This document shows positions 30,801 through 43,621 of a stretch of DNA of 49,726 nucleotides, one piece after another. Source of the stretch: Candidatus Omnitrophota bacterium (GTDB taxonomy: Bacteria > Omnitrophota > Gorgyraeia > 2-01-FULL-45-10). The notes under the pieces were generated by a model. The model saw only the letters and a list, made by a program, of their open reading frames with translations. It was not told the DNA's origin and searched no databases. The translations under genes and the position numbers were made by a program. Numbering within the stretch: position 1 is the first letter of the stretch; each line of letters starts with the position of its first letter. The stretch lies in the NCBI GenBank assembly GCA_018823705.1, contig JAHJHP010000012.1, positions 1 through 49,726 on the forward strand, in the 5' to 3' direction.

Positions 30801-31136
30801 ATGGCGATGAAGAAACAAGCCTCAAAATCAATAAAAAAGGGACGGCCTATTAAGGCCAGGATAGTCAGTAGAGAGCCCCGGACGAGGCAATTTAGCCCGC
30901 GCGGAACCATCGGTAGGCCCGGTTATAAAGTGCTGAAATTTGAGGAGATTGAGTCGATAAGGCTGATTGACTATATGGGCCTGGACCAGTGTGAAGCGGC
31001 GGCCTTAATGAAGGTCAGTCAACAGACGTTTTCAAGGGTCTTACGGAAAGCCCGAAAAGCGGTGGCAGAAGCCCTGATCCTGGGCCGTATAATAAAGGTG
31101 GCCGGGGGAGACTATAAAGTCGAAAAGATGGTTTAA
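30801..31136 (+). CDS. DUF134/UPF0251-like HTH DNA-binding protein
   Basis: RPIKARIVSREPRTRQFSPRG...EIESIRLIDYMGLDQCEAAALMKVSQQTFSRVLRKARKAVAEALILGRII. Confidence 0.85.
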   Translation: MAMKKQASKSIKKGRPIKARIVSREPRTRQFSPRGTIGRPGYKVLKFEEIESIRLIDYMGLDQCEAAALMKVSQQTFSRVLRKARKAVAEALILGRIIKVAGGDYKVEKMV

Positions 31137-31187
31137 ATGTCTTAAGTTAACATTGACACCTCACACGTCCTGTGATATGTTTATAAC

Positions 31188-32030
31188 ATGAACAGAGATT
31201 TAAGATCAAGGTTACAACAAGAAGAACTGCGCAGATTGTATCTGATAGAAAAGAAGTCACTCGAGGACATAGCGCGGTTGTATGGGGTGTCCAGGGTAGC
31301 CATATGGAAGTACTGTGTAGCTGAAGGATTGGTAAGGCGCGGAAGGTCTGAGGCTAGATTAGAAGCCCAGAAAAAAGGTAAAGTTCCCCAGGGTTTCTTT
31401 GATATAAACGATAATTTTTTTAGTAATTGGTCCCCGGAAATGGCGTATGTTCTGGGGCTGATTGCCACAGATGGCTGCATTTCTAAATCAGGTACCGTAT
31501 CGCTCTGCATAAACGATAAAGATCTATTGGAAGAAGTAAGGCTGGTTATGGATTCCGAGCATAAGATATGCCAGTCGAAACATCAGGAAGGATTATATTG
31601 TTTTCACTTTGCCAGACCCCGGTTAGTTAAGGATTTGGCAGGGCTTGGAATTTTGCCCAGGAAAAGCTTGAATGTTAAATTTCCGGCAGTTCCAGATGCT
31701 TTTTTGAAGGATTTCATAAGGGGGGTTTTTGATGGTGACGGCTCAGTATATTTTGAGAAACGAAGCAAGCGATATCCCTTAAGAACGACGTTTGTCAGTA
31801 GTTCGCAAGAGTTCATTGAAAAACTGGAGATTACTCTCCAGCAACTAGGATTGCCCAGGAGGGTAATACATAAGCAAGGGACGAAGAATGGAACGCATTT
31901 TAAGATCAGGTATAGTCATGAAGACAGCGGAAAATTATTTAAAGTGATGTATTATGATGCCATAAATTGCCTATTTCTGGAGCGTAAATATAAGAAGTTT
32001 TTGGATGGTTTTGAGCAGGAAAGGAGCTGA
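31188..32030 (+). CDS. Free-standing LAGLIDADG homing endonuclease with N-terminal HTH
   Basis: YVLGLIATDGCISK and FIRGVFDGDGSVYFEKRS motifs; N-terminal SLEDIARLYGVSRVAIWKY HTH. Confidence 0.9.
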   Translation: MNRDLRSRLQQEELRRLYLIEKKSLEDIARLYGVSRVAIWKYCVAEGLVRRGRSEARLEAQKKGKVPQGFFDINDNFFSNWSPEMAYVLGLIATDGCISKSGTVSLCINDKDLLEEVRLVMDSEHKICQSKHQEGLYCFHFARPRLVKDLAGLGILPRKSLNVKFPAVPDAFLKDFIRGVFDGDGSVYFEKRSKRYPLRTTFVSSSQEFIEKLEITLQQLGLPRRVIHKQGTKNGTHFKIRYSHEDSGKLFKVMYYDAINCLFLERKYKKFLDGFEQERS

Positions 32031-32035
32031 TCGCA

Positions 32036-32242
32036 ATGGAAAATGATCTAGAAACCTGGCAAAAGCTTCACACGTTTTATATGTCTCAAGGATATCAGAC
32101 CAAGGATTTGGCAGCACACTTAAAAGTTTCTACGAGAACAATACAGAGATGGCTAAAAGGCAAGTCGCAGCCCAAGAAAAAATATTTGGAAATGATCAGA
32201 AAATACCTATGTGAGACCGCAAAAAGCAAGATACAGGACTAA
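32036..32242 (+). CDS. Small HTH protein
   Basis: YQTKDLAAHLKVSTRTIQRWLKGKSQPKKKYL. Confidence 0.75.
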   Translation: MENDLETWQKLHTFYMSQGYQTKDLAAHLKVSTRTIQRWLKGKSQPKKKYLEMIRKYLCETAKSKIQD

Positions 32243-32311
32243 ATACTAACCGCTGACTTAACAAATGACACCTAATACCAGCGGTTTGCTTTCCTTCAGT
32301 AATGTCGCACT

Positions 32312-32339
32312 TGTTCTTATAATATATCTTATGTTAACT
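32312..32339 (+). promoter_or_regulatory. dif-like XerCD site / attL of the element
   Basis: TGTTCTTATAA-TATATC-TTATGTTAACT; compare E. coli dif GGTGCGCATAA-TGTATA-TTATGTTAAAT. Confidence 0.85.
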
Positions 32340-32463
32340 ACGTATATAGCAGTAATCCCCTCCACTAAGTAGTTAATCCACAAGCAGTTACAGTAAATCT
32401 AAGCTCAAAATAGCTAACTTTGTCATTCCTAAAATAACTCTATCTTAACAAAGGCCTGATTAT

Positions 32464-33252
32464 ATGCCGGATAAACCCAAATTACAGCCAGATTTCATAC
32501 CAGTTTGGAAGGTCGAATTTAACGATCTAAGGACTATGCCGCAACGCGCTTTTTTGCTCCAGCTAATTTACCGTGCTTATCGCGATCCGCAGACTTCTAT
32601 CTGCTCCCTCTCTGATTATGAAATTCAAAGGATAACGGCTTGGGAACGCACAACGATAAAGGCCGCCAGACGCTTCCTATTGAAGAATAACCACATCAAG
32701 CCAGCCGGATATCATACCTACATTCTTAACGATTTTAAGCGCTTTAAGTTATCAACATGTAGCAGGGAAACCCCTCTACCACAAGAAGAAAGTAGCAGGG
32801 AAACCCCTCTACCAATAGCAGGGAAACCCCCCTACAGTAGCAGGGAAACCCTACCAGAGAAGCATGGAAACCCTACCAGTACGTTATATAAGAGTAGAGA
32901 AGAGTTGTTAGAGTCCAACAACAACCCTCTCCCCTCTATCCTAAAAGACGACCTAAAGCTCCTATTTACAGCGCAAGGACAGCAAGGCGATCCCCTGCTT
33001 GTATTCTTCTACACAGTAGCCCAGGAGCGCTTAAATAAGGGCTATAAACCAGGTATTTTAAGAGTAGCTATCAAGCGCGCGATCTCCGCGAACTCAAAAG
33101 CGAACATACAGGACATATTGAGCTTTGAAGCGCTGGCGGCTATTAAGGCAGACCAAGGCCGCCAGGCGAAACAGGCCGCGGAGGATATAAAGCTCAAAGA
33201 GTGGCAGAACGGACAGCGTTTTGAAGGCTCAAAAAAGGAGGTAAAGGCATGA
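32464..33252 (+). CDS. Putative replication initiator (N-terminal winged-HTH-like) with embedded iterons
   Basis: MPQRAFLLQLIYRAYRDPQTSICSLSDYEIQRITAWERTTIKAARRFLLKNNHIK; first gene of the element; SRETPLP repeats. Confidence 0.6.
   Translation: MPDKPKLQPDFIPVWKVEFNDLRTMPQRAFLLQLIYRAYRDPQTSICSLSDYEIQRITAWERTTIKAARRFLLKNNHIKPAGYHTYILNDFKRFKLSTCSRETPLPQEESSRETPLPIAGKPPYSSRETLPEKHGNPTSTLYKSREELLESNNNPLPSILKDDLKLLFTAQGQQGDPLLVFFYTVAQERLNKGYKPGILRVAIKRAISANSKANIQDILSFEALAAIKADQGRQAKQAAEDIKLKEWQNGQRFEGSKKEVKA
32761..32878 (+). repeat. Five iteron-like repeats (AGCAGGGAAACCCCTCTACCA and variants)
   Basis: Starts at 32761, 32794, 32817, 32839, 32861; the last four spaced 22-23 bp; DnaA-box-like TTATCAACA at 32749-32757. 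Confidence 0.85.
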
Positions 33253-33500
33253 AGGCCAGGCCGATTAAAGTCCAGGAGCAAATGTCTTTTATTCCAGGCC
33301 AGAGTTTTTATTTTGTCTTTTTTAAGGGAGAGGACGGATCATCTTATCGGACTTGCCTCTCCCCTTCTTGCGGAAACTTTAAGCGCTGGGCTCCTATCAT
33401 TAACCAGGTGCGCGCTGGCCTGGAGATCTGGCTTGACGGCCTTATACTACGCGGCCGGAGGCTCATTGACGCGGACAGTATGTTTAAGGTGATATCGTGA
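33249..33500 (+). CDS. Viral hypothetical protein, 83 aa
   Basis: Overlaps the upstream stop; GQSFYFVFFKGEDGSSYRTCLSPSCGNFKRW. Confidence 0.65.
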   Translation: MKARPIKVQEQMSFIPGQSFYFVFFKGEDGSSYRTCLSPSCGNFKRWAPIINQVRAGLEIWLDGLILRGRRLIDADSMFKVIS

Positions 33501-33604
33501 TAACGTCCTGCCTATCCGTTTATGATGTGATAATCGGCTACTCGCTGATCGCCGCGGCCGGTATAGGCACGATCATTATATTCGTTACCGGACTATATGA
33601 ATAA
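33497..33604 (+). CDS. 35-aa single-TM viral protein (below the ORF track cutoff)
   Basis: VITSCLSVYDVIIGYSLIAAAGIGTIIIFVTGLYE; GTG start overlaps the previous stop. Confidence 0.55.
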   Translation: MITSCLSVYDVIIGYSLIAAAGIGTIIIFVTGLYE

Positions 33605-33685
33605 TGCCAGGTGAATTTGTCGGCTCCGGCCTCTTATCCGGCGGCCTCGCTCGGCTACCCTGGCATACCTAAAGAAAGGAATCGT

Positions 33686-34354
33686 ATGTTTGACAAGAAA
33701 AAAAAGGTATTTATCGGCATAGCGAAGTATAACGGTATGGAATCCGAAACGGAGAACACCCTCAAAGCGGTAATAGATACGCGCAAAGGCTGGGAAGTCG
33801 GCGAATACATGGAGATCATAGGCCGGAGCGCGATCTCGCGCGTCCGGAACGATCTCGCAACAGCCTTTCTAAAGACAGATTCAGACTTTCTTTTTTTCCT
33901 TGATACAGATATGACCTGGATGCCGAAAGATAAGAACGAAGAAAATCCCATAGACGTAATGATCCGCGCGGACGTTGACATAATATCACCCCCTATGACT
34001 AACCGTCAGCAACCGATTCGCGCCTTGTGGCGGCCTATCTCCAAGAAAGACCTTGACGTGTGGAATCGTAAATGGCCTTTTCCGGTGCTACATACCGGAT
34101 CGGGCTTCATGCTGATCCGGCGCAATGTTATCGAAGGCTTATTGAAGGCCGGACACGCCGCGCCGTTCATGCCCGTATGGTGTTCGGAGGAACAAGTCGA
34201 AACCTCGGACGATGTGGCCTTCTGCCGCCGCGCGCTTCAATGCGGTTATAAGATATGGCTACAACCGAATATACTGATCGGGCATATAGGCAAGTATGCC
34301 TTTAACGTGGACAACATAAAGCCGATCTTACAGCAGGAAGCGCAGAAGCCATGA
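33686..34354 (+). CDS. GT-A-fold glycosyltransferase-like protein
   Basis: KVFIGIAKYNGMESET...SRVRNDLATAFLKTDSDFLFFLDTDMTW...LHTGSGFMLIRRNVIEGL; ATG at 33686 (ORF track starts at 33611). Confidence 0.78.
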   Translation: MFDKKKKVFIGIAKYNGMESETENTLKAVIDTRKGWEVGEYMEIIGRSAISRVRNDLATAFLKTDSDFLFFLDTDMTWMPKDKNEENPIDVMIRADVDIISPPMTNRQQPIRALWRPISKKDLDVWNRKWPFPVLHTGSGFMLIRRNVIEGLLKAGHAAPFMPVWCSEEQVETSDDVAFCRRALQCGYKIWLQPNILIGHIGKYAFNVDNIKPILQQEAQKP

Positions 34355-34518
34355 TAAAAGAGCTTTGCGATGAGTGCGAAAAAGAAGTAGCTTTAGGCTG
34401 TCATCAAACAATACGCGTAACAGTTGAAAAATATGTAGAGCTATCGCGCGTTGCAAATACGTATGCCTTTTGTTCGTATAGTTGCTTTGAAAATTCGGTG
34501 AAAGGAGGCGGTAAATAA
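34351..34518 (+). CDS. 55-aa Cys-rich (zinc-ribbon-like) viral protein (below the ORF track cutoff)
   Basis: MIKELCDECEKEVALGCHQTIRVTVEKYVELSRVANTYAFCSYSCFENSVKGGGK; ATGA overlap with the upstream gene. Confidence 0.65.
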   Translation: MIKELCDECEKEVALGCHQTIRVTVEKYVELSRVANTYAFCSYSCFENSVKGGGK

Positions 34519-34781
34519 TGCCCGATCAGCATACTTGTAAGAATTGCGGAGCGATCGAGAACCTAAAGACCGGAGAGCTAACCTATAAAGGCGATAATCC
34601 GCTACTCAAAGAGAATAAGGCTTTGAAAGAAGCGGTTACAACCTTAGAGGTTAAAAACAAATACCTGGCGAAGCTCGCGGCCGGTAAAAGAGCCAAGAAA
34701 GAGCCAGGAACCCAGCCAGCGGCGCAAGCCAGAAAGGAGCCAGAAAATGCCAAAGAAAAAGAAAACCCCTGGCACTATTAG
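34518..34781 (+). CDS. Viral hypothetical protein with N-terminal CKNCG and basic/Pro-rich C-terminus
   Basis: MPDQHTCKNCGAIENLKTGELTYKGDNPLLKENKALKEAV. Confidence 0.65.
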   Translation: MPDQHTCKNCGAIENLKTGELTYKGDNPLLKENKALKEAVTTLEVKNKYLAKLAAGKRAKKEPGTQPAAQARKEPENAKEKENPWHY

Positions 34782-35265
34782 CCAGGACGAAGGCCTAAAT
34801 AAGCTAAAAGCGATCAAAGAAGCCCTTCCCCCTCCCCCTCCTGTTAGCCAGGATCAGCCAGGGATTAGCCAGGAGGAGATCAAAGTTATACCAATAGGCC
34901 AGGAGCCGAAGCCGGTATCTGGTATATTCAAATCTATATATCCGCTTTTTATAGATATGATCTGCCACATAACGAACAAGGAGAAGTTTAACGATACCAG
35001 GAAAGCGGAACTCCTGGACAGCGTAAGCCAGGATCTTGACGAACTGGAGCGCAGGTATATACCGGAAACAGTCCGGAATATGCCAGGCATTAAGGCGTTA
35101 AGCATTACCGGAATAGCTGTCGCCTTCCAGCCGAAAGCCAAGAAAGAGCCAGCGAAGAAGCCGGAGGATAGCCAGCCGGAGCCAGAAAATAAGCCAGAAC
35201 CGCCAGCTCCAGCCGCGCCGCCCACAATACCGGAGCCAGCGCCACAGCCAGGATTGCCAGCCTAA
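34747..35265 (+). CDS. Pro/Gln/Lys-rich viral protein
   Basis: Low-complexity PPPPPVSQDQPG start and PAPAAPPTIPEPAPQPGLPA end; overlaps the preceding ORF. Confidence 0.65.
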   Translation: MPKKKKTPGTISQDEGLNKLKAIKEALPPPPPVSQDQPGISQEEIKVIPIGQEPKPVSGIFKSIYPLFIDMICHITNKEKFNDTRKAELLDSVSQDLDELERRYIPETVRNMPGIKALSITGIAVAFQPKAKKEPAKKPEDSQPEPENKPEPPAPAAPPTIPEPAPQPGLPA

Positions 35266-35871
35266 ATGCCAAGCAATAAGATCGTTGTCATATTAGGCCG
35301 GAAAGGATCCGGAAAGACTGAATACTGCCGCGCCATGATGAAAGGCTTAACCAGGTTTATAGCCTATGATCCGGTGCGGCAGTTTAAGGCCGGCGTTGTA
35401 TTCAATAGGCTTGATCTGCTCCTGGACTTCTTAATCAATAACTACCATAACAATTTTAAAGCGATATACCAGCCGCAGTTTAATGATGATGATATAGACA
35501 CCGCGCAAGCGGAATTTATCCAGCTCTCGCGCGTTGTCCAGAATTTAAGCAAGATCTATTTTGTTATTGACGAAGTGGATATATATACATCAGCTCATCA
35601 ATGCCCTCCGATATTCAAGAATCTGATCCTCCGCGGCCGGCATAAGGAGATCTCTATCATTTGCACAACCAGGCGGCATACTGAAACATCAAGGAACTTG
35701 ACCGCGCAAGCGGACGTTATAGTATCTTTTCACCAGCAGGAGCCTAACGATATCAAATATCTTTCGCAGTTTTACGGAGAGAAGGCGGCCTCCCTCCCCT
35801 CCCTGGAGCCATACCATTACATAAAATATGAGAATGGCGAAACCACTATTGAAAAACCGATCAAGATATAA
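35266..35871 (+). CDS. Genome-packaging ATPase (A32/FtsK-HerA-like)
   Basis: Walker A LGRKGSGKT; Walker B IYFVIDEVDIY; ILRGRHKEISIICTTRRHTETSRNLTAQADVIVSFHQQEP. Confidence 0.85.
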   Translation: MPSNKIVVILGRKGSGKTEYCRAMMKGLTRFIAYDPVRQFKAGVVFNRLDLLLDFLINNYHNNFKAIYQPQFNDDDIDTAQAEFIQLSRVVQNLSKIYFVIDEVDIYTSAHQCPPIFKNLILRGRHKEISIICTTRRHTETSRNLTAQADVIVSFHQQEPNDIKYLSQFYGEKAASLPSLEPYHYIKYENGETTIEKPIKI

Positions 35872-36019
35872 AAAGACTTATGTCCGGTGCGCTCAATGCG
35901 GATCGCCGAACGTCCGGTATTATGTATGTTACAAGAGCATAGGCCGCGGAAAGTTTTGTTCGCATAGTTGCCAGATGAAATTTATCTGGAACCTTCTATA
36001 CGGTAAGAATTACTATTAG
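35828..36019 (+). CDS. 63-aa zinc-ribbon-like viral protein
   Basis: VRCAQCGSPNVRYYVCYKSIGRGKFCSHSCQMKF; overlaps the ATPase 3' end. Confidence 0.65.
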   Translation: MRMAKPLLKNRSRYKKTYVRCAQCGSPNVRYYVCYKSIGRGKFCSHSCQMKFIWNLLYGKNYY

Positions 36020-36036
36020 AAAGTAAACTTTCGGTA

Positions 36037-36064
36037 TTGCCAAATAAAAATATATCAGTATACT
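36037..36064 (+). promoter_or_regulatory. Candidate late/structural promoter
   Basis: TTGCCA (36037) N16 TATACT (36059). Confidence 0.6.
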
Positions 36065-36082
36065 TAATCATAGAAATTCTTT

Positions 36083-36121
36083 AAGAGGCCACTAAGAGAA
36101 TCGAGTGGCCTCTTTTCTTTT
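36083..36121 (+). terminator. Rho-independent terminator immediately downstream of the promoter
   Basis: AAGAGGCCACT aagagaatcg AGTGGCCTCTT TTCTTTT. Confidence 0.88.
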
Positions 36122-36158
36122 AGTGCGCCTCGCAACCAAATAAAGGGAGGGTGTTAAG

Positions 36159-36290
36159 ATGTTGAATGATATCATGAACCTGTTCGCTCCGAAAAAGATA
36201 ATCGGCACGGTCATAGTTATGGTAGTGATTTTAGCCGCCATACACAATTTCGCGCCAGCGGCCTGGAAGCAGAATATCGGTATTGCCTAA
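36159..36290 (+). CDS. 43-aa single-TM viral protein (below the ORF track cutoff)
   Basis: MLNDIMNLFAPKKIIGTVIVMVVILAAIHNFAPAAWKQNIGIA, preceded by GGGAGG. Confidence 0.65.
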   Translation: MLNDIMNLFAPKKIIGTVIVMVVILAAIHNFAPAAWKQNIGIA

Positions 36291-36351
36291 AAGCGGCGTT
36301 CGCTCTTAGGAATTTTTTTCGCAAAAATTCTTTAAGGAAGGAAAAAAGAAA

Positions 36352-37335
36352 ATGTCAAAGCAGATACGAAATATAGCGGTCAAGAGCTTAACGCTCGGAC
36401 AGCCGGAAACGATCCTTCTGCCGCGTAACTACGCGATCAGAGGCCTTGTCCTCCAGCTCGCAGGATCAGTAACCGTAACCGGCGCAACCGGCAACGGCGG
36501 AGTGAAAACAGCCGGACTCTGGCATACGATATCGTCCTTGCGCGTAAGGCGCGACGGCCGCGATACGCTTATCTCGATTCCAGCTTTCTTGCTGTATACC
36601 TTGAATAAGATACTCTACAAAACAGCGCCGAAGCTAACCAACGCGACCACAGGCGCCGCGCAGACGAATACCGCGCTTACCGGCGGCCTCGTTCTTCCTT
36701 TTGAGAATCTCGGCGGAATTAAGCCGTTTGATACTCTACTGAAAGGAAGCGGCCTCTCATCGCTTGACCTGTTAATAGACACACAGGCGATATCGAATAT
36801 GTTCGGAACGGCCTGGGCTAACGCGGCCATAGTAGGCACAGCCGCGATGAGCTTATCCGTTGACGTTATTGAGGAAGTCGGCGTTAATAACTTCATATTC
36901 GGCGATATCCGCACTTCGCTAATATCGAAGGCAAACGTCGCGGCCACTTCCACGAACTTCCAGATCAAGCCTTTACCGGTAGGCAACTACTATAAAGGCT
37001 TCCTGCTGTTCGCGGTGGATTCGACAGACGGCCCGTCTGATTCTGTCATAACGAACATCAAGCTGAAAAGCGGCTCGGAAGTCATCGTTGACATACCGGC
37101 GCTGAACTGCAAGGACTTGATGAAGCTAATCAACGCGCAGGAAACTGCCGTTGAAACCGGCGTGTATTATCTCGATCTCATGCCGGACGGTATGCTGAAT
37201 CAATGCCTCGACGTTACGCCCAAATCCGGCCGTGAAACGCTGGAGCTGGAGCTGGCGGTTACCAAAGGAACGGCCACGACCGATATCTATATCGTCGGCC
37301 TGGAATACATTCCTCCGGTAATAGTAAAGAAATAG
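36352..37335 (+). CDS. Candidate major capsid protein (double-jelly-roll type)
   Basis: Directly downstream of the ATPase module; beta-rich 327 aa; LLPRNYAIRGLVLQLAGSVTVTG...LWHTISSLRVRRDGRDTLISIPAFLLYTLNKI. Confidence 0.75.
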   Translation: MSKQIRNIAVKSLTLGQPETILLPRNYAIRGLVLQLAGSVTVTGATGNGGVKTAGLWHTISSLRVRRDGRDTLISIPAFLLYTLNKILYKTAPKLTNATTGAAQTNTALTGGLVLPFENLGGIKPFDTLLKGSGLSSLDLLIDTQAISNMFGTAWANAAIVGTAAMSLSVDVIEEVGVNNFIFGDIRTSLISKANVAATSTNFQIKPLPVGNYYKGFLLFAVDSTDGPSDSVITNIKLKSGSEVIVDIPALNCKDLMKLINAQETAVETGVYYLDLMPDGMLNQCLDVTPKSGRETLELELAVTKGTATTDIYIVGLEYIPPVIVKK

Positions 37336-37350
37336 TTTAAGGAAAAGGAC

Positions 37351-37392
37351 ACGGACGGAAAATCCTTTAAACGGTTTTCCGTCCGTTTGTTT
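37351..37392 (+). terminator. Hairpin terminator after the capsid gene
   Basis: ACGGACGGAAAA tcctttaaacgg TTTTCCGTCCGT TTGTTT. Confidence 0.82.
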
Positions 37393-37406
37393 AAGTAAAG
37401 GATTTT

Positions 37407-37982
37407 ATGGAACCGATAACAATAGCGACCACAGTAATAGCGGCGGCCTCGGCAATTAAATCCGGCGGAGAGGCCTCCGGCGTTGACTGGGGAAAAGTTT
37501 TCGGCCTTCGGCCGAAGGGCGGCGCTGGCGGCAACGATCCTGGTTATACCCAAGCTGTCGCGGCAGATATGCAGGCCGAATATGATAAGGCGCAGGCCGC
37601 GGTTAATCAGACAAATGATCCGGACGCGCAACAGGCTATCCTTAACGCTTACGATACGGAAAAAGCGGCCTGGGGAGATCCTAATAATCCTAACCGTAAT
37701 TCAGCAATAGGACAATCCCGATTTGCGCAACAGATAGATTCTATATTAGCCAGCGCGAAGTCTTATTCCGCCGTTCCTATTCCGGCAGCTCAATCCTCGA
37801 CAACAACGCCTGTAACGACAATTGTTCCGGCGAATAATTTTAACCAGACAGGCGCGGATGTTTTTTCCGGAGTGAATCCAAAGCCTGTAACATCAAACCC
37901 TTTAATTGATAACGCCCCTATAATTTTAGTGATTATAGGCGTTGTGGTAATAGCGTTGGTTATAAGAAAGAAAGGCAAATAA
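37407..37982 (+). CDS. Virion protein with C-terminal TM anchor
   Basis: C-terminus NAPIILVIIGVVVIALVIRKKGK. Confidence 0.7.
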   Translation: MEPITIATTVIAAASAIKSGGEASGVDWGKVFGLRPKGGAGGNDPGYTQAVAADMQAEYDKAQAAVNQTNDPDAQQAILNAYDTEKAAWGDPNNPNRNSAIGQSRFAQQIDSILASAKSYSAVPIPAAQSSTTTPVTTIVPANNFNQTGADVFSGVNPKPVTSNPLIDNAPIILVIIGVVVIALVIRKKGK

Positions 37983-37983
37983 A

Positions 37984-38451
37984 ATGGCTACGTTGAACGA
38001 CTTATGGAATAGCTTAACTGCTCCGAAAGCAAAACCCGTTGATTATTACAGCAAAGGATATGATCCAAGTTATCTTACCGGCACCGCTTCCGGAGGAGCA
38101 AAGATAAGCGTTCCGCCAAAAGCGGTGGATAATCAACAGGTATCAAATTATTTAACTCAAGGGGTTAGCTGGTTAAACGCTATCGGTGGAATAGTATCTA
38201 CCATTGCTCCAAAAGCCGCGCAGATTACGGCTCCGGCGGAAGCACTAAAAGTCGGCGGAGTTGTTACCGGCGCGGCTACCCCAGGCACATCTGCACAGGT
38301 GAACTTGCCGGATAATGTAATAGTATTGCCAGGCCAGGTATCAACGCAAGGCTCCCAGGCTATTCAAGCGCAAGACTTCTCATGGGTTATGTGGCTGATA
38401 ATCGCCCTTCTCGTCTTAGGTGGACTGTATATCGTAACGAAAGGAAAATAA
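37984..38451 (+). CDS. Virion protein with C-terminal TM anchor
   Basis: C-terminus FSWVMWLIIALLVLGGLYIVTKGK. Confidence 0.7.
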   Translation: MATLNDLWNSLTAPKAKPVDYYSKGYDPSYLTGTASGGAKISVPPKAVDNQQVSNYLTQGVSWLNAIGGIVSTIAPKAAQITAPAEALKVGGVVTGAATPGTSAQVNLPDNVIVLPGQVSTQGSQAIQAQDFSWVMWLIIALLVLGGLYIVTKGK

Positions 38452-38454
38452 CCA

Positions 38455-39189
38455 ATGGACAATTTCATTCCGCCAGGCTTAGAAGCTCGTAACGTTGGCA
38501 CATTATCACAGCTTAATATCAAAGACATCAAGTCGATGTCTTTCGAGGACATCATACAAAAGATAAACGCCGGAGATATCGCGGAGCCGGTAAAGTTTTC
38601 GCTTCCGCTTGATACGGCTACGGAGAATCTTCAATTAAATTTCGCTGGTAATTACTTCGGCGTTATAGACGCTTCCGATCAGTCCGCGGAAATAGCTGTT
38701 AAATTTAATAAACAGCAAAGTGAATCTCTTACATTCTCAAAAGGCCTTTACATGGTGCGGCCTTTTAACCAGGTATTTTTGACCTGGGCGGCGCAGACAA
38801 GTAAAACGATAGATATTATAATATCGGCCTACGCGAAAGAGCTGTTTGAGGTAATGGACTTTAGATCGGCCACGCAGTTGTCAGCCGATACTGCTGATAT
38901 TCTCGATCAGATGAAAGGTGTAGCAACCGCGCTCGGATTCGATCTTGTAACGCTTGATACCGATCCCCATGTGGCAGTAGCCGCGAACACTCAAAGGCGA
39001 TCTGTTATCATTCAAGCGGCCGCCGGAAACACTTCAACCGTATATCTCGGCTTCGATAATACTACCGCAACCACTAAATACGTTGTCGCGTTAAAGCCTG
39101 GCGAAATATACTCTATTGATGATTACCAGGGCGCGATCTGGGCTTCCAGCGCTACGGCAACGGATAAGATCAGCTACGGAGAGGTGTAA
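38455..39189 (+). CDS. Putative minor structural/penton-like beta-rich protein
   Basis: Position after the membrane proteins and before the spike; beta-rich sequence. Confidence 0.55.
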   Translation: MDNFIPPGLEARNVGTLSQLNIKDIKSMSFEDIIQKINAGDIAEPVKFSLPLDTATENLQLNFAGNYFGVIDASDQSAEIAVKFNKQQSESLTFSKGLYMVRPFNQVFLTWAAQTSKTIDIIISAYAKELFEVMDFRSATQLSADTADILDQMKGVATALGFDLVTLDTDPHVAVAANTQRRSVIIQAAAGNTSTVYLGFDNTTATTKYVVALKPGEIYSIDDYQGAIWASSATATDKISYGEV

Positions 39190-39191
39190 TC

Positions 39192-39797
39192 ATGGGGCAG
39201 AACGCTAAAATTTCAGAGCTTCCGGCAAATCCGGCTGTCGGAGATATAATATATCGCGCTCCTGCTACATACGGAAGTGATTTTTTTACCGGAGGAACGC
39301 CTAGTGCGAGTAGTGTAGATTTAGCTCCCGCCGCGCAAGCTTTTGACAATAACGCTGGGACTTATTGGGGCACGGGCGGCGCGGCTAATCCATATCCGCA
39401 TTGGGTGAAATATGATCTTGGCGTGGGTGTAGCAAAAATAGCCAGGAGATTAACGATTACGCCTTATAGCGATGTCAGTGGTGGGTGTGTTGGAAATTTT
39501 ACTCTTCATGGCTCAAACGATAATACTAACTGGACGCTTCTATATACAGGCACACACGCTAACAGCGGAACAATAGAAAATTACGACTTTGCCAATACCG
39601 TGGCATATAGATATTACAAAATAACTGTCTCAAGTGCGTATGCATCTAACGGCGACGCTACGCATAATTACGCGCTTATAGTTGAAGCTGAGATAATGGA
39701 ATTTGCCGCAGGCGCAAAATGGCAAAAGTTAGCAATCGGCACAAGCGGCCAAACGCTTAAAGTTGCGGCAACGCTTCTGCCGGCCTGGACAACGTAA
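39192..39797 (+). CDS. Spike/fibre protein with F5/8 type C (discoidin-like) domain
   Basis: AAQAFDNNAGTYWGTGG...PHWVKYDLGVGVAKIARRLTITPY...FTLHGSNDNTNWTLLYTGT...YRYYKITVSSAY, flanked by GDIIYRAPA and KWQKLAIGTSGQTLKVAATLLPAWTT. Confidence 0.8.
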   Translation: MGQNAKISELPANPAVGDIIYRAPATYGSDFFTGGTPSASSVDLAPAAQAFDNNAGTYWGTGGAANPYPHWVKYDLGVGVAKIARRLTITPYSDVSGGCVGNFTLHGSNDNTNWTLLYTGTHANSGTIENYDFANTVAYRYYKITVSSAYASNGDATHNYALIVEAEIMEFAAGAKWQKLAIGTSGQTLKVAATLLPAWTT

Positions 39798-39806
39798 AGG
39801 AGCTAT

Positions 39807-40037
39807 ATGATCGATCTTATTGATAAGAGTAAAAATATCGGGGTTAATACTTTGATCGATAAAATAAACGAAGTTATTCTAAAAATCGATCAAGATTTAA
39901 AGGCTAAAAGCGATAAAATATCGGCGATAGAAACAAACGTAGTCGCTATCGATCAGGATCTAAAAGAAAAAACCGATAAAATATCAGCAATACAAATAGA
40001 TGTGGCCGCTATTAAAGCAGTTGAGCCTATAACATGA
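39807..40037 (+). CDS. Small coiled-coil viral protein with internal duplication
   Basis: VILKIDQDLKAKSDKISAIETNVVAIDQDLKEKTDKISAIQIDVAAI. Confidence 0.65.
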   Translation: MIDLIDKSKNIGVNTLIDKINEVILKIDQDLKAKSDKISAIETNVVAIDQDLKEKTDKISAIQIDVAAIKAVEPIT

Positions 40038-40070
40038 TAAGGCAAGTCAGCAGGAGGCCTTAGATAATTT

Positions 40071-40235
40071 ATGATATCAAAGACAAGGCTCCGCGTTGTT
40101 ATGGCTTCGGCAGTTGTCTATTTTTTCGTTACGATGATACTACGCCGATTCGTTCCGGATAACCTTCTCGGCGAACCGGCCAAGCCGTTAACGATTAAAA
40201 CCCTGGCCGAAAAAGACGAAGGAGCCTCCGCGTAA
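40071..40235 (+). CDS. 54-aa single-TM viral protein (below the ORF track cutoff)
   Basis: MISKTRLRVVMASAVVYFFVTMILRRFVPDNLLGEPAKPLTIKTLAEKDEGASA; stop overlaps the next start (TAATG). Confidence 0.65.
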   Translation: MISKTRLRVVMASAVVYFFVTMILRRFVPDNLLGEPAKPLTIKTLAEKDEGASA

Positions 40236-40552
40236 TGAATATATTCGATACGGTATACGCGATAATGAATCCGGCACAGCTCGGCATACAGGCCGGAGCC
40301 TCAACAGCAAAGCAGATCCTACCGGAACCGGAGTGGATCCTCACTCCCTACACCGAAGAACGCATGAAACAGATAGACCCTGCCAAATATCAACAGCTCG
40401 TAAAAGAATACGGAACCTTACAAGCGGACACACGCGGCGCATACGCGCAAGCCCTTAATCCTATTCCGGCACTTTCAGATATAAGTAAGTATGTATTGAT
40501 CGGCGTTGTGGCAGTCGCGGTAATAGTCCTGTTCATAAAGAAAGGAAAATAA
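40235..40552 (+). CDS. Viral protein with C-terminal TM anchor
   Basis: C-terminus ISKYVLIGVVAVAVIVLFIKKGK. Confidence 0.7.
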   Translation: MNIFDTVYAIMNPAQLGIQAGASTAKQILPEPEWILTPYTEERMKQIDPAKYQQLVKEYGTLQADTRGAYAQALNPIPALSDISKYVLIGVVAVAVIVLFIKKGK

Positions 40553-40553
40553 C

Positions 40554-40658
40554 ATGATGAAATTTTTTATCGGAATGTTTGTCGGCGCGGCAATAGTCTA
40601 TGTTTTCTACCCTCTTATAAAGAACTCGCTGAATAAGCTATTCCGGCAGAACGATTAA
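40554..40658 (+). CDS. 34-aa single-TM viral protein (below the ORF track cutoff)
   Basis: MMKFFIGMFVGAAIVYVFYPLIKNSLNKLFRQND; AAAGGAAAATAAC SD. Confidence 0.6.
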   Translation: MMKFFIGMFVGAAIVYVFYPLIKNSLNKLFRQND

Positions 40659-40661
40659 GCC

Positions 40662-40976
40662 GTGGCCGAATCTTTTGAACTCGGCAAAGTCTTTTCAGTT
40701 AAAGGCTGGTATCAGTTTATCGGTATCATAGCGCGGATCGCGCTGATAGCCCTTTTTGTCCTGGCCTTCCTATTCGTATATAGCCTATTCGCTCCGAAAA
40801 AACCGTCCGTCCAGCAGAACCAGCCGCAGATCACCGGAGATCATGCCGCGGTAACCAATAACTACATACAGAATAAGGAAGCCGGAGCCTGGGAAGCTGG
40901 CGGCCATGCCGGAGTGATCCGGCTGGGCGATCAGAACGGCGGCTATGCCGGACTTGAACTTAAAAGGAGATTTTAA
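40662..40976 (+). CDS. Viral single-TM protein
   Basis: IGIIARIALIALFVLAFLFVYSLF segment; GTG start. Confidence 0.65.
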   Translation: MAESFELGKVFSVKGWYQFIGIIARIALIALFVLAFLFVYSLFAPKKPSVQQNQPQITGDHAAVTNNYIQNKEAGAWEAGGHAGVIRLGDQNGGYAGLELKRRF

Positions 40977-40978
40977 CC

Positions 40979-41158
40979 ATGCCGGAAGCTCCAGCATATA
41001 GCTTTGATACGCCACTCGGAAAGATCAAGATACAATGCCGGAAAGACGACAGCCATTTTTATTGCCATGTCAATTCGCCGTTTTATAAGAACGAAATCAA
41101 GTTTGAAAAGGCCAAATTGACAGAAGGAGTGCTGAAATTCGTTGAATGGCTAAAATAG
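40979..41158 (+). CDS. 59-aa viral hypothetical protein (below the ORF track cutoff)
   Basis: MPEAPAYSFDTPLGKIKIQCRKDDSHFYCHVNSPFYKNEIKFEKAKLTEGVLKFVEWLK. Confidence 0.6.
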   Translation: MPEAPAYSFDTPLGKIKIQCRKDDSHFYCHVNSPFYKNEIKFEKAKLTEGVLKFVEWLK

Positions 41159-41240
41159 GCGTTTTTAGCGTTCACCGTCGGAGAAGTGTATCGTTTAAAC
41201 GCTATTAGAGGCACGATCTAAGGACACCGAAGGGTAACAC

Positions 41241-41435
41241 ATGGCTGAAAATACGGTATATGTCCACATGAGGACAAAAGACATTGAGATCCTCTGTAAG
41301 TGTGGCGGCAAGACATATCCGGTCGCGCATTTACTCGCTCATAGCGTAATAGAGGTTAGCGTGTTCTGCCGGAAGTGCGGCGCCATGGTAAAACAGTATA
41401 ACAGAATGATCCAACAACGAAGGCCACATGATTAA
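41241..41435 (+). CDS. Zinc-ribbon-like viral protein
   Basis: ILCKCGGKTYPVAHLLAHSVIEVSVFCRKCGAM. Confidence 0.65.
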   Translation: MAENTVYVHMRTKDIEILCKCGGKTYPVAHLLAHSVIEVSVFCRKCGAMVKQYNRMIQQRRPHD

Positions 41436-41667
41436 CAACCTTATGAAAAAAATAGCCTGTAATCCTTTATCATGCCTGGCGGCGTATCTTATCATTATGG
41501 GTATGCTGATCGCTCCGATATATGTGCGAATGGATAAGCTCGATGATAAGATCGGGAAGATCTACGAATACATGATAACCGGCCATAGGAGCCTCGATCT
41601 CGCTTCCGCGCTACCCTCTCCCCTAAATCTCGCCTTTGCGCGTAACCAGCCGCGCCCTACACAGTAA
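41428..41667 (+). CDS. Viral single-TM protein
   Basis: PLSCLAAYLIIMGMLIAPIYVRMDKLDDKIGKIYEYM; overlaps the upstream ORF. Confidence 0.6.
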   Translation: MINNLMKKIACNPLSCLAAYLIIMGMLIAPIYVRMDKLDDKIGKIYEYMITGHRSLDLASALPSPLNLAFARNQPRPTQ

Positions 41668-41790
41668 GCCAGCCTATCCAGGAGTAGTGTTAAACTTTTT
41701 TTCACTTCTCCCCTGCCGCGAGATCTCTTTCTGCTCCGTCGGAAAAAATAAAGTATCAGATCGTTTTTAACTTTTTATCCTAACAAACCC

Positions 41791-41818
41791 TTGACAAAAG
41801 CCAGATATGTGGTATATT
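41791..41818 (+). promoter_or_regulatory. Promoter of the excisionase-like gene
   Basis: TTGACA N16 TATATT upstream of 41844. Confidence 0.65.
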
Positions 41819-41843
41819 ATTTTCAAAAGCAAGGAGAACGAAC

Positions 41844-42098
41844 ATGAGCGAAATTAAGGAGAGGGGGGGTGAGAAAAAAATGGAGTTGGATATTCTATAT
41901 ACGAAAGAAGATATAGCGCGAAGATATACACTCGAGTTGACTACTCTTAATAACTGGGTATCACAGGGAAAAATCCCTTATGCCAAGATTGGCAAGAAAG
42001 TTTTATTCCCAGCCAGAGAGATCGAGAGGTGGGAGAAGCAGAGATTTCGGCCTGCTATCAAAACCACAGAGTTAACGAGCGTTATCAAAAGTGAGTAG
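41844..42098 (+). CDS. Excisionase-like HTH (MerR-type/HTH_17) protein
   Basis: ILYTKEDIARRYTLELTTLNNWVSQGKIPYAKIGKKVLFPAREIERWEKQ. Confidence 0.85.
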   Translation: MSEIKERGGEKKMELDILYTKEDIARRYTLELTTLNNWVSQGKIPYAKIGKKVLFPAREIERWEKQRFRPAIKTTELTSVIKSE

Positions 42099-42117
42099 TA
42101 TATATCTTATGTTAACT
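42090..42117 (+). promoter_or_regulatory. attR of the element (hybrid dif-like site)
   Basis: AGTGAGTAGTA-TATATC-TTATGTTAACT; core and right arm identical to 32323-32339, left arm divergent. Confidence 0.85.
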
Positions 42118-42222
42118 AGCCAAGCACAAAGGTAATAACCTAACCTATTGCTATGCCGCCTGTTATGATTATATACGGATTACCTGTTGATAAGCTCATC
42201 TTCTTGATCTGCTTGCGGAGAC

Positions 42223-42594
42223 TTATGAGGTTTTTTGCTGCGATTGATTATCTGCAACGTTTATTGATTCGATCACGAATTCTTTGCTATATGCCATATC
42301 CAGATCCGAATCATTACACTTAACACATCTGGTCGTTGGTTTATCTATCTGAAAAGCATGTTTACAGGTGCGGCATGTCAGTTCTATCTTTAAGACCTTG
42401 ATATTAAGGCCTATTTTATCAAGCTCCGTGCCTTTTGTCATGACCCTGAAGGTCTCTGTGAGAGTTTCGGGTTTGACGTGGCTTAAAGGGCTTAATGCGG
42501 CGTTTATAGACGTTATTCTGGAGCCATTTGGGATGCTGTTTTGCTTAATATTCAACGCTCTTACAATCTCTTTTGCAAAGGTCAGATCATGCAT
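42223..42594 (-). CDS. HypA-like nickel-insertion protein
   Basis: MHDLTFAKEIV start; CRTC...CVKC zinc motif. Confidence 0.75.
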   Translation of the reverse strand: MHDLTFAKEIVRALNIKQNSIPNGSRITSINAALSPLSHVKPETLTETFRVMTKGTELDKIGLNIKVLKIELTCRTCKHAFQIDKPTTRCVKCNDSDLDMAYSKEFVIESINVADNQSQQKTS

Positions 42595-42605
42595 TTTTAG
42601 CCCTC

Positions 42606-42998
42606 CTAAATCGCTATTTTTGAGCGGATCTCTTCAGGTATTCTCGTGGGCCTCAGGCTTCCATTTACACAGGCCCAGACCGCCTTACAAATGACTAAAG
42701 TGGACTCCCCCCTCTTTATCTCCTGTATGAAGGTAAGAGAGGCATTGCCCACTTTTTCAGGCCTGGTAAATACCCGGATTAAATCACCGTATCTGGCAGG
42801 GCTCTTATAGTCGATCTCGAGGCGTACCACAGGAAATAGTACGCTTTTCTTCGCGTACCCTACCAGGTCTATGCCAATTGAGCGGAAATACTCCGTGCGG
42901 GCTTCCTCAAGATGCTTTAAATAAGCGCCGTAATACACGACGCCTCCGGCATCCGTATCGTGGTAGTATATCCTTTTTTCCAGGTAAGGGTTCTTCAT
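42606..42998 (-). CDS. YbgC-family acyl-CoA thioesterase (hotdog fold)
   Basis: RIYYHDTDAGGVVYYGAYLKHLEEARTEYFR. Confidence 0.92.
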   Translation of the reverse strand: MKNPYLEKRIYYHDTDAGGVVYYGAYLKHLEEARTEYFRSIGIDLVGYAKKSVLFPVVRLEIDYKSPARYGDLIRVFTRPEKVGNASLTFIQEIKRGESTLVICKAVWACVNGSLRPTRIPEEIRSKIAI

Positions 42999-43621
42999 AT
43001 GCTCAGTATAAGTTTTATGAACGTCAGTATGGCGTTCTGTGTAGATATTATAATCGGATCGAGCATCCTTGTAAATAATAAAGCGAATATTATCAATATG
43101 CCGTACGGCTCGATCTTTACCAGCGCCCCCTGGGCTTTTTCCGGCAATATTCCATAGAGTATTCTTGAGCCGTCAAGTGGAGGTATAGGAATAAGATTAA
43201 ACGACGCCAGAATGATATTTACCTTAGTCATTACTACGAGGACCATCGTAATGATCGGGTTGGCGGTTACAACTTTGAACTGAAGCAGTAAGATGGATAT
43301 GGTGGCGAGGGCTATATTTGTAACGCAACCGGCAAGAGATACACATATCAAGCCCACCCTGAAATTTCTCAGTTTTGAGTAAACGACAGGTACGGGTTTT
43401 GCCCACCCGAATCCTACCAAAAAGAGCGCCAGTGTTCCTATCGGATCCAGGTGGACAAGCGGACTAAGGGAGAGCCTTCCGGTGCGTTTTGCGGTATCAT
43501 CGCCGAAAAAGTATGCGACCCAGCCGTGAGATACTTCGTGCAATATCACTGAGTACAGAAGCGGAACCACCAGTAATATAAACGCGATGGGATCCTTGAA
43601 TAATAGTGACGACAGGCCCAT
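42995..43621 (-). CDS. Site-2 protease family (M50) metalloprotease
   Basis: VILHEVSHGWVAYFFGDDTAKRTGRLSLSPLVHLDPIGT; FNLIPIPPLDGSRIL; M at 43621 (ORF track starts at 43762). Confidence 0.92.
   Translation of the reverse strand: MGLSSLLFKDPIAFILLVVPLLYSVILHEVSHGWVAYFFGDDTAKRTGRLSLSPLVHLDPIGTLALFLVGFGWAKPVPVVYSKLRNFRVGLICVSLAGCVTNIALATISILLLQFKVVTANPIITMVLVVMTKVNIILASFNLIPIPPLDGSRILYGILPEKAQGALVKIEPYGILIIFALLFTRMLDPIIISTQNAILTFIKLILSI

Follow-up and report, generated by a model that had tools for sequence, protein, structure and literature searches.

Iterons of a probable lambda-type replication origin inside the initiator gene of a dif-integrated PM2-like provirus from the Omnitrophota

The presence of a replication origin inside the gene for its own initiator is a classical arrangement that is already known, and RepA_N plasmids also place the origin within rep. 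The origin of phage lambda (ori-lambda) lies within gene O as a set of inverted-repeat iterons of about 19 bp, which are bound by dimers of the O protein, and a neighbouring AT-rich region is opened (PMC4488673, PMC5043065, PMC7466680). Plasmid iterons, by comparison, are mostly direct repeats and bind monomers (PMC5043065). Phage PM2 replicates by a rolling-circle mechanism with its P12 protein (PMC1950889); DnaD-like winged helix-turn-helix initiators have been noted among the Vinavirales (PMC9502842), and some tailless prophages of Vibrio integrate at dif (PMC11630473). Judging from comparative sequence analysis, the repeats described here, which lie in the linker-coding part of an initiator gene, are very probably the origin iterons of a PM2-like virus integrated at dif.

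The window is the whole stretch of 49,726 nt that was analysed, and all coordinates are positions within it. It carries a PM2-like provirus of 9,778 bp plus a duplicated 17-bp dif core (32323..42117, + strand). Core searches located the dif-like sequence TATATCTTATGTTAACT at 32323 and 42101 (left core 32323..32339, right core 42101..42117, both +), the longer form of which is not expected by chance. Genome G007 of the same genus (locus L045) contains the core once, with flanks aligning to window positions 30852-32339 and 42100-43609; this is the empty site, from which it follows that the element measures 9,778 bp and was inserted at the host dif. The LAGLIDADG gene at 31188-32030 is assigned to the host flank because the genome with the empty site has it too. 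Integration is presumably performed by the host XerCD at dif, and no recombinase family is found among the element ORFs scanned, which cover all but some small ones. The last gene of the provirus (41844-42098) specifies an excisionase-like HTH protein. A packaging ATPase of the PRD1/PM2 type is present, with a match to phrog_2666 (E 1.4e-23) and tblastn matches to the packaging ATPases of STIV2 and the PRD1 group, and the capsid protein gives a borderline match to P2_C (24.9 bits against a cut-off of 25). Further genes inside the virus include a glycosyltransferase-like gene (33611-34354; phrog_1574, E 1.4e-17, with weak Pfam glycosyltransferase matches), a protein with an F5/8 type C (galactose-binding-like) domain (39192-39797; E 2.3e-13), which is a candidate receptor-binding or spike protein, and a small ORF (39807-40037) in which a 63-bp coding repeat occurs twice at 39885-40012, possibly encoding a coiled coil.

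A phylum-wide protein search revealed homologous initiator ORFs in three further genomes (L003, L004, and L005), each situated just inside a dif core. The elements of these relatives (L033-L035) possess P2_N and P2_C capsid matches above the cut-off together with packaging ATPase-like proteins. When the relatives' capsid proteins were used to scan 376 genomes only these three elements were recovered, and thus the iteron-bearing gene accompanies that capsid in every element recovered; the window capsid is too diverged to match the relatives' profile, so the initiator is common to elements with divergent capsids. The L005 contig (L035) is 9,744 bp in length with a 25-bp terminal overlap, which is consistent with a circle of 9,719 bp and suggests that this element is circular. 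A second dif core was not found for the L033 element, and the orientation of the core relative to the initiator gene in L033 and L034 is opposite to that in the window and L035. An alignment scan of genome contigs returned the same three elements and one near-copy. No match was obtained by tblastn of the window initiator against phage and plasmid records, by scanning viral and genome contigs with single proteins, or by alignment scans and an iteron-pair pattern search of viral contigs. The comparison sample is four elements, all from one phylum. A decayed copy of the initiator gene is found in G243 (L026:1501-1680), a member of the same genus as the L004 host, where a single deletion has taken out every iteron together with the latter half of the winged helix. 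The near-identical start of the L004 element is also present on a 2.6-kb contig labelled Gastranaerophilales (L030), which shares its sampling project with the L003 genome and has other sequence at the expected outer dif arm; mis-binning and another host are both possible explanations. With dif cores at both ends, an empty site in a sister genome, and a possibly circular relative, the window element appears to be a discrete replicon.

The first gene of the provirus, which begins at the dif core at 32323, encodes an initiator-like protein of 262 amino acid residues (32464..33252, +) and contains the repeat array. Matches to AGCAGGGAAACCC start at 32761, 32794, 32817, 32839, and 32861 (span 32761-32873), the fifth with one mismatch (AGCATGG), exactly where the first-pass annotation had placed five copies; it had put these within the first gene, which is true of the mobile element and not of the window. 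No other copy occurs in the window, and in 100 dinucleotide shuffles a mean of 1.1 matches was found, with 0/100 reaching five. The start-to-start spacing is 33, 23, 22, and 22 bp, which bears out the 22-23 bp originally reported for the last four copies. The unit is better delimited two bases earlier, where it forms the dyad GTAG-CAGGGAAACCCCT-CTAC. On the basis of repeat count, spacing and frame comparison, and the dyad frame, iterons 1 and 2 are assigned to 32759..32779 and 32792..32812, iteron 3 to 32815..32835 (first base A, not G), and iterons 4 and 5 to 32837..32854 and 32859..32876 (all +). The first three are 21 bp in length and the last two are short forms of 18 bp, three bases fewer, as had been noted; iteron 5 carries two substitutions. 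The array occupies nt 296-413 of the gene, and the five copies use all three of its codon frames, which is why the peptide SRETPLP is, as first observed, limited to some units.

Phased repeats of different sequence had been predicted in relatives, and they are present in 3/3 intact ones. In each of L003, L004, and L005 five tandem repeats occupy the same gene position, directly behind the winged-helix domain; they are of the AGCCCTAAAGGCTC, GCGGGAAAACCCCGC, and GTTGGGGAGCAAATACCCAAC types. The spacing is 34, 23, 22, 23 in L003, 35, 23, 23, 22 in L004, and 55, 23, 23, 21 in L005, such that the last four copies lie 21-23 bp apart in all four elements, and the arrays begin 43-67 nt past a conserved GYH motif. 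All four repeat types share one 21-bp dyad frame, GTWG-N13-CWAC, and their consensus units are self-complementary at 14-16 of the 21 positions; the frame alone occurs too often to serve for locating iterons across whole genomes. Directly after the array, 4/4 elements show a segment that is among the AT-richest stretches of the gene (96-99th percentile). In the window this AT-rich and purine-rich segment, a candidate unwinding element, adjoins the array at 32884..32923 (+; 68% AT, 96th percentile of the gene).

The winged-HTH-like start proposed for the protein agrees with modelling, in which residues 14-92, approximately (32503..32739, +), are predicted to form a winged-helix DNA-binding domain. 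Because the model of the full-length protein was of low quality (pLDDT 45), that of the N-terminal domain alone (pLDDT 77) was used. Fold searches with this domain returned general winged helices, every E value being above 0.001. Comparison of a four-sequence N-domain profile with a six-sequence O-family profile using hhalign gave 91% (E 1.1e-6, 88 columns), against 0.3% for LexA and 0.5% for MarR; these controls, being single sequences, have lower sensitivity than the O profile, and as a single sequence lambda O itself scored 25%. The PHROG category "replication initiation O-like" is matched by up to 3/4 members, the window protein by itself giving no O-like match, such that homology is seen with the profile and the other members. 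The N-terminal winged helix is remotely related to lambda O, a relationship at the profile level. The C-terminal part of the window protein (32920-33249) has no match and is helical in a low-confidence model, and those of L003-L005 comprise a short cysteine-rich module with CxxC pairs; with such differing C-terminal kinds the two halves of the protein appear to be exchangeable. Neither an O-type C-terminal domain nor a P helicase loader was detected by Pfam or PHROG in ORF 32464-33252 or the next gene (33249-33500), and neither the window protein nor its relatives have a Pfam match to RepA_N or Rep_3 (PF06970, PF01051).

The locus is best read as a lambda-type origin bound by the protein that it encodes. 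The computed features that bear on this reading are the array, its conserved geometry with diverging sequence, selection on the DNA, the AT-rich neighbour, and the remote O-domain homology; from them we infer protein binding, opening, helicase recruitment, and theta replication. The imperfect dyads would each be bound by the winged-helix domain of the 262-residue protein, most probably as a dimer, and with a spacing of approximately two helical turns (22-23 bp) the complexes would stack on the same side of the helix. The stacked complexes may then strain the adjoining downstream segment, rich in A+T and in purines, until it opens, after which the C-terminal part would bring replication proteins of the host to the excised 9.8-kb circle. 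Two further sequence signals were considered. A DnaA-box-like sequence, TTATCAACA, does lie just upstream of the array (32749..32757, +), though as evidence it is weaker than first claimed, since it has one mismatch to the DnaA box TTATCCACA and is inconsistent in the relatives: L005 has a perfect box at nt 307-315 of its initiator gene, immediately upstream of the iterons and corresponding in position to that of the window, and two of the three relatives have none at the corresponding position. In 4/4 elements the GC skew reaches its minimum 260-480 bp downstream of iteron 1, with an amplitude that in 3/4 is not above that of block-shuffled sequence.

It is improbable, though the most credible of the alternatives, that the repeats serve as autorepression operators, a partition centromere, a packaging signal, or some other binding platform rather than as an origin. 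Repressors are commonly built as a winged helix acting on dyads, the weak fold matches include TubR-type partition proteins, and any such role would also select on the DNA. The array, however, lies about 300 bp into the gene with no promoter-like site at the array on the coding strand, no iteron copy is found elsewhere in the window, and the partner NTPase of a partition system was not identified; moreover, the N-domain matches O and not MarR or LexA, and an AT-rich segment directly after the array fits origins. That the repeats act as hairpins in mRNA or single-stranded DNA is very unlikely. Every unit is a dyad, and folded as RNA the array has a somewhat greater stability than shuffled sequences (z -2.25; 5/200 as good), but this excess is small, hairpins explain neither the phasing of the tandem copies nor the AT-rich segment beside the array, and no rolling-circle Rep family was found among the element ORFs scanned against Pfam.

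The question of whether selection acts on the DNA or on the peptide bears on the two remaining alternatives. Between-unit DNA identity is 0.89-0.94 in the four elements, compared to 0.53-0.60 in synonymous shuffles; relative to synonymous recoding of the same proteins, unit identity gives z values of 7.7, 7.2, 5.9, and 7.9. The dyad sums exceed all or nearly all shuffles in the four elements, and the units are read in two to three codon frames in every element. Since the DNA of the units is much more uniform than in synonymous shuffles, selection acts on the DNA, with conserved geometry, a conclusion which these comparisons support well and which had been suggested at first reading from the unit lengths. 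A functionless minisatellite, made by slippage and drifting in a disordered linker, would account for tandem copies sitting in low-complexity sequence and for copies that are alike within an element and unlike between elements, as in satellites. There is little to recommend it, given that copy number and spacing are kept although the proteins share no more than 22-34% identity along their length, that the dyad and common outer frame recur in all four elements, and that frame-shifting unit lengths are tolerated while the spacing stays; together with the synonymous shuffles, the frames and conserved spacing led us to reject it. A peptide repeat in the linker as the selected feature is the least probable explanation of all and in its pure form was rejected, for although two units encode an identical SRETPLP, the search for a conserved peptide repeat with synonymous divergence found instead DNA units that are alike, far beyond synonymous shuffles, and frames that differ. 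The interpretation as an origin within the initiator gene, which the first-pass annotation had put forward, is accordingly favoured by both the DNA-level selection and the phased, divergent repeats of the relatives.

In the open-licence literature searched, a lambda-type in-gene origin appears to be undescribed for PM2-like viruses: no report of in-gene iterons in Vinavirales was found there, and the surveys of Vinavirales and double-jelly-roll viruses searched make no mention of Omnitrophota. We lean towards the view that the Omnitrophota PM2-like lineage swapped rolling-circle initiation for a lambda-type origin-in-gene module, in which virus-specific iterons on a fixed frame co-diverge with the initiator and the C-terminal recruiting part has been exchanged (helical or cysteine-rich). 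If this is true, origin specificity and contact with the host machinery evolve as separate modules of one gene. The lambda-type arrangement would also then be known from tailless viruses of the double-jelly-roll kind and from a phylum in which laboratory genetics hardly exists. The initiators and iterons of these elements form naturally occurring pairs that share a geometry and vary in sequence, through which recognition residues could be mapped, and the element is a small testable replicon that might be a starting point for an Omnitrophota vector.

Among known systems, the RepA_N and Rep_3 iteron plasmids share iteron-type initiation with this element but differ in their Pfam families, which are absent from the window protein and its relatives. 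With PM2-like viruses (Corticoviridae, order Vinavirales) it has in common a circular genome near 10 kb, the packaging ATPase and, in relatives L033-L035, a P2-type (double-jelly-roll) capsid protein; it differs from PM2 in that no rolling-circle initiator such as P12 is found among its ORFs scanned against Pfam. The lambdoid phages possess a tailed virion, whereas the virion type here is PM2-like. To calibrate the likeness to ori-lambda, the same script was run on the O genes of lambda, HK446, and P22 (gene 18). It recovered the annotated lambda iterons with their spacing of 20, 24, 23, and HK446 and P22 show the same spacing with different iteron sequences and mixed frames; the AT-rich segment after the array was also found in lambda. 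Ori-lambda has four iterons at 20, 24, 23, whereas there are five here, the first of which starts 33-35 bp before the second (55 in L005), and the homology is remote and confined to the N-domain, with no P gene found. As no O C-terminal domain or P loader was detected, the locus is regarded as ori-lambda-like in its working and is not filed as an O/P module. Both origins nevertheless consist of tandem imperfect-dyad iterons of about 18-21 bp, spaced at approximately two turns and in mixed codon frames. In each, the array comes just after the DNA-binding domain (nt 349-433 of the lambda gene; 296-413 here) and is followed by an AT-rich, strand-asymmetric segment, and in each the relatives keep the geometry and diverge in sequence.
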